This document shows, one piece after another, positions 12,852 to 21,838 of a DNA stretch of 64,000 bases. The stretch lies in contig NC_010556.1 of NCBI RefSeq assembly GCF_000019905.1, positions 2,382,001 to 2,446,000 of the forward strand, given 5' to 3'. The stretch's first letter is position 1. Each line of letters opens with the position of its first letter. The DNA comes from Exiguobacterium artemiae 255-15 (GTDB taxonomy: Bacteria; Bacillota; Bacilli; Exiguobacteriales; Exiguobacteriaceae). The notes under the pieces are model-generated. The model did not search any database. It was not told the DNA's origin and saw nothing but the letters and a program-made list of their open reading frames with translations. Both the position numbers and the translations under genes were made by a program.

Positions 12852-13741
12852 TGCGGATTTCAAACAATGTACAGGCTTTGAAAGCCTACCGAAACTTAAG
12901 CGCCAATCAGCTGAACGTTAAAACGACGATGGATAAACTGTCGAGCGGTCAAAAAATCAACCGCGGTGCTGATGACGCGGCCGGTCTCGCAATTTCTGAA
13001 AAGATGCGGAACCGTCTTAAAGCGCTTGATAAAGCGGAACAAAACGTCCTCGACGGCATTTCGATGGTCCAGACGGTCGAAGGCGGACTCAGTGAGACGC
13101 ACAATCTGTTGCAACGGATGCGGGAACTGGCCGTCCAAGCCGGTAATGGAACACTCGCGACGGAAGACCGGACAGCGATTCAGGAAGAAATCAACCAGTT
13201 GACGAACGAAGTCTCACGGATTGCCGAGACGACACAGTTTAACGGCAAAAAATTACTGACAGGTGGATACGGAAAAGACAATGCCGTCTTTATCCAGACA
13301 AACGCCGGTGCGAGTGAAGGCATCTCTTTGACGATCAATGATATGCGGGCACGTAACATCGGGATCGCCTCGACGACACAACTGAACGAAAATGTCCGTC
13401 CTCTCGATTTCCCGAGTGACGACGGCACACCGGAATACGCGCTCAGCGTCATGACGAGCAGTGACGCCGAGCAAGCAATCAGTCTGTACACGAAGGCGAT
13501 CGATACGATTTCCCAACAACGGGCGCAACTCGGCGCGATCCAAAACCGGTTCGAAGCAATGTCATCCGTCCTCAGCGTCAGCAAGGAAAACCTGACGGCA
13601 TCCGAGTCACGGATTCGTGACACCGATATGGCACGTGAGATGATGGAGTATGCGAAGTACAACATTCTCAATCAATCGGGCATGGCGATGATCGCGCAAG
13701 CCAACGCCTTGCCGCAAGGCGTCTTACAATTACTCAACTAA
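12851..13741 (+). CDS. Flagellin, second copy (accessory island)
   Basis: Filament protein of 296 residues. N-terminal D0/D1 (MRISNNVQALKAYRNLSANQ, then SGQKINRGADDAAGLAISEKMR) and C-terminal D1/D0 (AQLGAIQNRFEAMSSVLSVS, ESRIRDTDMAREMMEYAKYNIL, ending PQGVLQLLN) are intact; the variable middle (about 155-200) is short. It is clearly different from the main flagellin at 21011-21838, mainly in the middle and in the helix DMAREMMEYAKYNILNQSGMA. The start codon overlaps the FliS-like stop. It could form an alternative or minor filament. Confidence 0.95.
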   Translation: MRISNNVQALKAYRNLSANQLNVKTTMDKLSSGQKINRGADDAAGLAISEKMRNRLKALDKAEQNVLDGISMVQTVEGGLSETHNLLQRMRELAVQAGNGTLATEDRTAIQEEINQLTNEVSRIAETTQFNGKKLLTGGYGKDNAVFIQTNAGASEGISLTINDMRARNIGIASTTQLNENVRPLDFPSDDGTPEYALSVMTSSDAEQAISLYTKAIDTISQQRAQLGAIQNRFEAMSSVLSVSKENLTASESRIRDTDMAREMMEYAKYNILNQSGMAMIAQANALPQGVLQLLN

Positions 13742-19708: not shown

Positions 19709-19779
19709 TTAGTTTTATTTTAAAGTTCTCAAAATCGGGAATAAAGGAACGTATGTTCTTTTATGAAAGGAGCTTTACT

Positions 19780-20610
19780 ATGCTGATCGATACATTATCA
19801 AAAGCTCAACAAGCTATCTTACTGGCAAGTGTTTTAGCAGATGGTGAAATTACAAAATGTTATCCAAAATCTCGGCGAAAAAATAATAGTTATCGAGAGC
19901 ACTTTGGTGAGCCACAGCGGTTTTATCGGGAATGGAAACAATGTCAATTTCCCGACCTCCTATATATTCGTCAAAATAATCTCGTCTCCAAATCACTCCC
20001 TCTAATGACCGAACTGTATCCCTATTTTTATCCACATCATAAAAAGGTAATTCCATTTGAACTGCTCTCGCGTTGTACACATCCGTTATTTTTATTGACA
20101 CTCTATTTAGATGACGGTTCACTTATGATTTCTAAACGCACGAACCACGCCAATCAGTTGTATGTGACACCTTCCATCGCACTTTATCTACAGTCGTTTT
20201 CAAAAGAAGAGCTGATTCCTTTTTGTAATTGGTTGAATCAGACATTCCATCTCAATTTTCGTTTATCAAAAACTTCCAACGGTTGCGGTTATTTCTTGAA
20301 AACGACTCGTGTCACAGATACGATCACATTTTTGAAGCAAGTTGCACCATATACAGTGGACTTACCAAAGTTTTCTTATAAGTTAGATTGGGAAGCTCGT
20401 CTCAACAAACTTCAGCATGAACATCCAGAGTATCAAGTACTTCCATCAAATCCTTCAAGACCATATACATCAGAAGAGTGCACTACTATTTTAGAACTCA
20501 AAACAAGTGGATGGACGACGCAAGCCATTGCTGAAAAACTCAACCGGACACACTGGTCCGTCACTTATAAGTTTGGACAACTAAAAAAAGGCCATGGAAC
20601 AAGTCCATGA
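19780..20610 (+). CDS. LAGLIDADG homing endonuclease with C-terminal Myb/SANT-like domain
   Basis: 276 residues. Two LAGLIDADG motifs are visible: LLASVLADG (residues 14-22) and LLTLYLDDG (about 105-113), each with the catalytic Asp near the end, so it is the two-motif single-chain type that cuts a long asymmetric site. Residues about 226-270 (YTSEECTTILELKTSGWTTQAIAEKLNRT) look like a Myb/SANT or helix-turn-helix DNA-binding unit. Start at 19780: AAAGGAG is 7 bases before it. The gene is clearly richer in A+T than its neighbours and runs against hag and flaG, between them, as a late arrival. It lies 75 bases past the end of the group I intron-like RNA rather than in it. Its last codons contain the hag terminator. 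Confidence 0.88.
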   Translation: MLIDTLSKAQQAILLASVLADGEITKCYPKSRRKNNSYREHFGEPQRFYREWKQCQFPDLLYIRQNNLVSKSLPLMTELYPYFYPHHKKVIPFELLSRCTHPLFLLTLYLDDGSLMISKRTNHANQLYVTPSIALYLQSFSKEELIPFCNWLNQTFHLNFRLSKTSNGCGYFLKTTRVTDTITFLKQVAPYTVDLPKFSYKLDWEARLNKLQHEHPEYQVLPSNPSRPYTSEECTTILELKTSGWTTQAIAEKLNRTHWSVTYKFGQLKKGHGTSP

Positions 20611-20616
20611 CCTTTA
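20583..20616 (-). terminator. Terminator of the hag/intron transcript, inside the endonuclease 3' end
   Basis: Minus strand AAAGGTCATGGAC/CCATGGCCTTTTTTT hairpin with T-run. It overlaps the last nine codons of the antisense endonuclease gene. Confidence 0.8.
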
Positions 20617-20640: not shown

Positions 20641-20685
20641 TTAACGGAGTAATTGGAGAACGCCTTGCGGCTGTTGGTTCGCTTG
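20641..20685 (-). other. Second copy of the flagellin C-terminal codons (candidate 3' exon)
   Basis: Fifteen codons on the hag strand encode QANQQPQGVLQLLR and a stop. They align without gaps to the last fifteen codons of hag (QSNQTPQGVLQLLR, 21011-21055) with 33 of 45 bases identical; only two residues differ and the other base changes are silent. The codon before it in this frame is TAG, so it cannot be translated without splicing. The G of that TAG (20686) is the natural terminal G of the intron. Confidence 0.8.
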
Positions 20686-21010
20686 CTACGCGCATTAACT
20701 TTCGCTAATGATAAGACTATATCTTCATCCTAGGTATACTAGGAGCTGGGCGCTTCCCCCGCCGTTTACGGAGTACGGATTTCATAACCATCAGAAGTCT
20801 CCATTAGGTCGTCTATCCTAGTCGTTGAACCTTCACCAAGGTTTCCCTACAGGTGCTTGGCTGCTGATTGTCCAATCCTTGACGTTTTTCAGAACGGTCA
20901 CGCTCACCGTTTCCAGCCACGTTGTCGTACATCAAGGCTCTAAGGAGTTCCAGCAATTCACCCAGTCATGCTCTGATCAGTTACTCGATCAGACGCCCGG
21001 TGAAATCAAA
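20686..21010 (-). ncRNA. Group I self-splicing intron core at the 3' end of hag
   Basis: On the minus strand the conserved group I elements occur in order: a P2-like hairpin (TCTGATC/GATCAGA, 20993 downward), P (AATTGCTGGAA, 20958-20948), Q (AATCAGCAGCC, 20869-20859; P4 pairs TGCTG with CAGCA), R (GTTCAACGACTA, 20830-20819), S (AAGATATAGTC, 20725-20715; P7 pairs GACTA with TAGTC) and a P9 hairpin with GAAA loop (20710-20693), then G at 20686. P5 (CCTTGA/TCAAGG) and P6a also form. The 5' boundary is uncertain: it may lie inside the hag coding end (up to 21055). No convincing P1 helix with a U-G pair was found for the expected junction after codon GCT at 21056. The intron may splice, or be a relic that lost P1. 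Confidence 0.85.
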
Positions 21011-21838
21011 TTACCGAAGGAGTTGAAGTACGCCTTGGGGTGTTTGATTCGATTGAGCCAACATTGCTTGTGCAGCTTGTCCAAGAATCGAGTTCTTTGT
21101 TTGGTTCATCATTTCTTTCGCCATGTCAACGTCACGGATACGTGATTCTGCAGCCGTTAAGTTTTCAGAAGATGTTTTAAGGTTATTGATTGTATGCTCG
21201 AGTCGGTTTTGGTTTGCACCAAGGTATGAACGAGCAGTACTTACTTTCCCAATAGCTGTATCAATTTTAGCAGTCGAAGCACCACCTGCTGAAACATCTA
21301 ACGTAGTTGCACCTAGTAAAGTCGTTGTATCTGCCTTAGTACTAGAAAGTTTGAGAGTAAGTTTCTCATAAGCTGCGCTTGCAACATCATTAGCACCAAT
21401 CTGTAAATCAACATCTACTGCTGCAGAAGAAATTAAATCTTTACCGTTAAATTTTGTAGAAGAAGCAATACGATCGATTTCTGTAACAAGCTCATCACCT
21501 TCAGCTTTAATTGCAGCTAAATCTTCAGTGTTGTTAGTACCATTCGATGCTTGTACAGAAAGTTCTCGCATTCGCTGAAGAATATCGTGTGTTTCGTTTA
21601 ATGCACCCTCAGCCGTTTGAATCATTGAAATACCATCTTGTGCGTTACGTGACGCTTGATCAAGTCCACGAACTTGTCCACGCATTTTTTCAGAGATTGC
21701 AAGACCAGCTGCATCATCGCCCGCTTTGTTGATACGAAGACCTGAAGCGAGTTTCTCCATTGATTTACCTTGAGCAGCAGTTGCCGCCGAAAGTTTGTTG
21801 TGTGTGTTAAGTGCTGTAATGTTGTGATTGATAATCAT
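21011..21838 (-). CDS. hag: Main flagellin (Hag)
   Basis: Filament protein, 275 residues, with standard ends: MIINHNITALNTHNKLSAATAAQ and GLRINKAGDDAAGLAISEKMRGQ, a short variable middle (about 140-190), and ESRIRDVDMAKEMMNQTKNSILGQAAQAMLAQSNQTPQGVLQLLR. The codons for the last 14 residues are duplicated beyond a group I intron core about 325 bases downstream. If the intron splices after codon GCT (21056), the product would end QANQQPQGVLQLLR instead of QSNQTPQGVLQLLR. TGGAGGG ribosome site, a CsrA-type hairpin in the leader, and a sigma-D promoter about 125 bases upstream. Confidence 0.97.
   Translation of the reverse strand: MIINHNITALNTHNKLSAATAAQGKSMEKLASGLRINKAGDDAAGLAISEKMRGQVRGLDQASRNAQDGISMIQTAEGALNETHDILQRMRELSVQASNGTNNTEDLAAIKAEGDELVTEIDRIASSTKFNGKDLISSAAVDVDLQIGANDVASAAYEKLTLKLSSTKADTTTLLGATTLDVSAGGASTAKIDTAIGKVSTARSYLGANQNRLEHTINNLKTSSENLTAAESRIRDVDMAKEMMNQTKNSILGQAAQAMLAQSNQTPQGVLQLLR

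Follow-up and report, generated by a model that had tools for sequence, protein, structure and literature searches.

Why should a flagellin gene end twice? In the 64,000-nucleotide stretch of DNA that was analysed (the window), the reading frame of hag closes with a normal C-terminus, and a second copy of the same terminal codons lies downstream on the same strand. The preliminary description of this locus offered two readings: an intron with a spare exon end of its own, which would make splicing optional, or a relic left when recombination repaired hag. The features on which our argument depends are as follows.

21056..21838, minus strand: 5' exon of hag (flagellin), ending ...ATG TTG GCT; open reading frame with Pfam Flagellin_N and Flagellin_C
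20686..21055, minus strand: group I intron of 370 bases, first base C21055, last base G20686 (omega G)
21011..21055, minus strand: spare (carried) flagellin end, QSNQTPQGVLQLLR-stop; the first 45 bases of the intron, 14 codons and stop
21003..21010, minus strand: 3' strand of the P1 extension, UUUGAUUU, pairing with spare codons at 21050-21043 (GAAUCAAA) in the predicted fold
20995..20998, minus strand: internal guide GGGC, which with exon GCU (21058-21056) and intron base C21055 makes P1
20972..20993, minus strand: P2 hairpin, 20993-20987 paired with 20978-20972, from sequence and predicted fold
20641..20685, minus strand: 3' exon, the native flagellin end, QANQQPQGVLQLLR-stop, matching the intronless hag of G005 and G013
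20583..20614, minus strand: terminator-like hairpin and T run 3' of hag, read from sequence
19753..20610, plus strand: LAGLIDADG homing-endonuclease-like gene of 285 amino acids, convergent with hag; Pfam LAGLIDADG_2, E 2.1e-13; homologues beside related introns

The intron and its predicted splice sites

The unspliced hag reading frame (21838-21011, minus strand) continues past the insertion point, which follows MLA (GCT ending 21056), and terminates with QSNQTPQGVLQLLR-stop at 21055-21011. By hand count, 12 of 45 bases and 2 of 14 residues distinguish the spare copy from the native one, exactly as first described. The group I core reported 3' of hag is borne out by a covariance-model match: Rfam RF00028 (group I intron) aligns over its full length (model positions 1-253 of 253) with 21013-20693 on the minus strand, at 75.2 bits (gathering score 50; E 2.9e-17), and thus includes the catalytic core from P3 to P9; in this alignment, a long stretch separates P7 from the 3' strand of P3. 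Two further hallmarks of group I introns are present, a U.G pair at the 5' splice site within P1 and a terminal G (20686), the latter found in all 52 introns that we identified at this flagellin site. The intron boundaries were set by P1, by exon 2 of the intronless alleles and by this terminal G.

Exon 2 is the native end of the host gene, whereas the first copy belongs to the intron: in two sister genomes of the window's genus (G005 and G013), hag lacks the intron, closes with MLAQANQQPQGVLQLLR-stop and has the same neighbouring gene downstream, and QANQQPQGVLQLLR is the commonest flagellin end, accounting for 40 of the 134 ends without this intron among the loci collected. In G013, the bases 3' of the stop are also shared. 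Joining GCT (21056) to CAA (20685) would restore the intronless protein exactly. A hairpin surrounds the native hag stop (20656-20631, minus strand; CCAATTAC...GTAATTGG); it is present also in the intronless G013, and the changes in L021 preserve its pairing.

The preliminary description saw no firm P1 for the junction after GCT, a view that our comparison of introns overturns. The pairing of GCU|C with GGGC occurs in the predicted fold of 51 of the 52 related introns folded up to P3 (the exception is G031), and its pair probability in the window's intron is 0.97 in the fold stopping before P3. When the P3 bases are included, P1 appears in only 25 of the 52 folds and is absent from that of the window's own intron; we prefer the fold cut before P3, since the P3 partner is absent from both fold sets. 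Exon GCU accompanies guide GGGC in 48 introns (two of these guides, in G137 and G357, were read by eye from the sequence 5' of P2), and exon UCU accompanies GGGA in 4, a paired change that restores P1 and counts as one event because its four introns form one clade. P1 has only 4 pairs. The base at -1 is T (U) in 52 of 52 intron-bearing genes, compared to 56 of the 134 flagellin ends that lack the intron.

The predicted P1 extension is stronger within introns than between them: for 44 distinct pairs, the mean duplex energy is -5.59 for a strand with its own partner and -3.81 after permutation, with none of 5000 permutations as low. A longest-stem test across families gave 6.42 versus 5.54, a weak result in which the guide was misassigned in two rows. 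The permutation tests leave the relatedness among introns in place.

As a weak alternative to P1, it had been suggested that TACTT pairs with GAGTA in the P2 loop, a different 5' splice site that would give a flagellin with a longer C-terminus. Five pairs are possible in this one sequence, but the corresponding P2-loop bases are GGGTA, TGGTA or CAGTA in relatives, GCU/GGGC is conserved and co-varying, and splicing at GCU already restores the exact intronless end. We therefore rejected TACTT/GAGTA as P1, for which it is not needed, and see next to no chance that this site is used.

Distribution and conservation of the two ends

If the second copy were an accident of one genome, we would not expect to find it elsewhere. 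RF00028 matches at E 0.001 or better, not all of them in flagellin, are found in 27 of 61 relatives, 63 of 151 genomes of one family, 94 of 398 class genomes and 36 of 398 phylum genomes; searching single-genome families as well brought no gain over the other searches. Introns were extracted from the loci of the stronger matches, and the intron counts are lower bounds. A census of the single flagellin site used in the window yielded at least 52 distinct introns, from ten of our family codes plus Peribacillus muralis and Rossellomorea aquimaris. By our tally, this site is occupied by an intron in 40 or more of the 398 class genomes, of which 20 belong to families other than the window's; within the window's genus, the intron is present in 14 of 19 genomes and absent from 5. 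Exiguobacterium antarcticum DSM 14480 (L037) shares the arrangement seen in the window.

The spare end is carried by 50 of these 52 introns, the carriers coming from eight family codes plus Peribacillus muralis and Rossellomorea aquimaris, and one further carrier (G516) lies outside the class. Both copies occur in 50 of 52 distinct introns, so the doubled end described for the window is more than chance; taken with the protein-level selection described below, this shows that the spare end is not a relic and is not confined to this genome. The two introns without it are placed among carriers, at two separate positions of the intron tree. The starred branches alone force two changes of spare-end state; the tree is unrooted, and we infer loss rather than gain in the two non-carriers. 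Families are intermixed in this tree, which suggests horizontal transfer. Some flagellin genes (L165 of G037, L227 of G376, L230 of G160 and others) contain two group I introns: one at RDVD|MAKEMM and, ∼100 bases from it, another at the window's site.

Both copies had been proposed to be held by selection on the protein. Indeed, dN is far below dS in each: the means are 0.156 and 1.27 for the spare copies (612 of 1081 pairs computable), and the values are 0.061 and 1.26 for the native copies (402 of 666 pairs computable). A single spare peptide is encoded by 12 distinct DNA sequences in the window's genus. The variation among spare copies sits at third codon positions (period-3 excess of 0.842, compared to at most 0.184 in 31 intron-core windows), and the spare end stops with TAA in 44 introns, TGA in 5 and TAG in 1. 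RNA structure alone would not yield this substitution pattern, and thus the spare end is very probably translated and functionally relevant.

This evidence also bears on the proposal that recombination with another flagellin repaired hag and left behind an intron unable to splice and a second copy in decay. In favour of such a dead relic, no splicing is needed for the frame to encode a full flagellin, but the native copy, the guide, P1 and the terminal G are retained in 52 introns, and the native copy changes far less at nonsynonymous than at synonymous sites (the dN of 0.061 and dS of 1.26 given above). With the copies, the ribozyme and P1 kept in many families and 12 versions in the window's genus encoding one peptide, we consider a relic very improbable.

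Residues 2 and 5 consistently distinguish the carried end from the native one. Residue 8, carried/native, is G/G in 38 introns, A/A in 9 and S/Q in 3, which represents only 2 to 4 independent changes. Amino-acid agreement between the two copies of a genome exceeds that in permutations (0 of 2000 as high), although on the tree, with its 2 to 4 independent changes, this agreement may reflect relatedness alone. Gene conversion as the source of the agreement at residue 8 is unsupported: for 38 distinct pairs, synonymous codon sharing within genomes is 0.411 versus 0.405 permuted, and 669 of 2000 permutations are as high.

Proposed fates of the unspliced message

The explanation that best fits these comparisons, and one we hold to be likely, is that the group I intron in hag can very probably splice and supplies a substitute for the piece of the gene it cuts off. 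On the unspliced message, ribosomes would run across the 5' splice site, translate the 14 spare codons and terminate within the P1 loop, and the product would be a complete flagellin whose C-terminus differs slightly; the spliced message, with GCU joined to CAA, would give the native C-terminus. Translation would compete with splicing, since it would open P1. As a usable flagellin would result from either message, the intron would be nearly harmless in a highly expressed gene. The first of the two original readings, an intron whose spare exon end makes splicing optional, is thus favoured by the spare end in 50 of 52 introns, by P1 and by selection at the protein level; we infer from sequence that splicing occurs in this organism, that it is optional and that both proteins are used.

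A selected function for the two proteins is a further possibility, with temperature or translation rate setting the ratio of spliced to unspliced message and thereby tuning two D0 ends. The consistent differences at residues 2 and 5 are in keeping with such a regulated switch, as is the reportedly temperature-dependent splicing of Geobacillus flagellin introns (PMC4853749). However, the two ends are nearly identical and the intron is missing from 5 of 19 genomes of the window's genus, and we think a switch of this kind unlikely.

Introns in bacterial coding genes are confronted with coupled translation. If the spare end does make splicing optional, this intron persists in a highly expressed gene by supplying the missing protein end itself, and the locus offers a directly testable system of one gene with two C-termini.

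Flagellin introns without a spare end begin differently. At a second flagellin site, RDVD|MAKEMM, we found at least 42 distinct introns (38 plus 4 more), in which the in-frame stubs end Ala-Ala in 41 and Val-Ala in 1 (YALAA, YAEAA, YAKAA and others); third codon bases vary in these stubs. At a third place, within ML|AQ, there are nine introns in the phylum-sample genomes, all with stubs ending Ala-Ala, and the stubs of the two non-carriers at the window's site end LVA and QVA. Thus, in every one of the 53 flagellin introns that we found to lack a spare end, the stub finishes Ala-Ala or Val-Ala before its stop, like SsrA tags, although common descent and a common P1 loop may play a part in this and make the independent number lower than the count. 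No such ending was found in 10 other group I insertions (4 plus 6), controls for which the upstream frame was guessed, the splice sites are putative and two are apparently in the same gene. The loci with these degron-like stubs include, under our site labels, L168, L180, L194 and L288 (site A) and L290, L291, L293-L296 and L300-L302 (site C).

ClpXP recognises Ala-Ala-type ends of SsrA tags. Of 15 host genomes, 14 yielded tmRNA tags, each of which ends Ala-Ala. Introns without a spare end probably route the stub to degradation. We lean towards a broader proposal, in which the flagellin introns of Bacillota answer the unspliced message either with a spare C-terminus (51 introns) or with an SsrA-like degron stub (53), so that their first codons would act as a quality-control module and splicing would be truly optional where a spare end is carried. 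The degron-like stubs of the sister introns thereby lead to a general hypothesis on how bacterial introns handle unspliced message.

Related systems and the neighbouring endonuclease

Group I introns are known within flagellin genes of thermophilic Bacillaceae (Geobacillus; Hayakawa and Ishizuka 2009, 2012, cited in PMC3984707 and PMC4853749), and the Geobacillus intron has been classed as IA2 (PMC4853749). These resemble the hag intron in their location, but the passages on them in the citing papers PMC3984707 and PMC4853749 mention no spare C-terminus. Carried C-termini are in turn described for mobile ORFs of fungal mitochondria (atp6 of Allomyces and Glomus, cox2 of Phlebia; PMC3630166, PMC4019555), where a LAGLIDADG-linked inserted element gives a substitute C-terminus and displaces the native one downstream. 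The hag intron likewise provides an in-frame substitute and displaces the native end downstream; its endonuclease gene, however, lies not between the two ends but beyond the native end, on the opposite strand. In the passages on Glomus, the displaced atp6 and cox2 ends are not found in mRNA (PMC3630166, PMC4019555), whereas in hag a group I ribozyme between the copies could rejoin the native end. A full-text search of open-licence literature found neither a spare flagellin end nor a degron-like stub; flagellin introns and carried C-termini are each known, and a group I flagellin intron with a spare end is a combination that this search did not find.

A third parallel is collaborative homing in phages, in which a free-standing endonuclease acts with an ORF-less group I intron (reviewed in PMC3984707). 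The hag intron is similarly ORF-less with a separate endonuclease gene close by, but it resides in a bacterial flagellin gene, and the endonuclease gene is missing at about half of the intron loci. In the window, about 30 bases separate the end of the LAGLIDADG_2 gene, on the opposite strand, from the native hag stop. At 26 of 52 intron loci, including three for which the available sequence is shorter, a homologue lies on the opposite strand within 1.4 kb downstream. The homologue is in pieces in G017, and homologues also adjoin intronless hag in G020 (where it has two stops), G022 and G024, a distribution suggestive of a free-standing homing gene that is gained and then decays. It is probable that the neighbouring endonuclease promotes homing of the intron or did so in the past.

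Two other features of the window deserve mention. A second flagellin gene of the same genome lies on the other strand (about 12854-13735, plus strand), with 48 to 56% identity to hag in two matched parts. A T-box leader (25389-25154, minus strand; 96.7 bits) lies upstream of an open reading frame (25059-23545) that, judged by eye, encodes a putative oligopeptide-binding lipoprotein.
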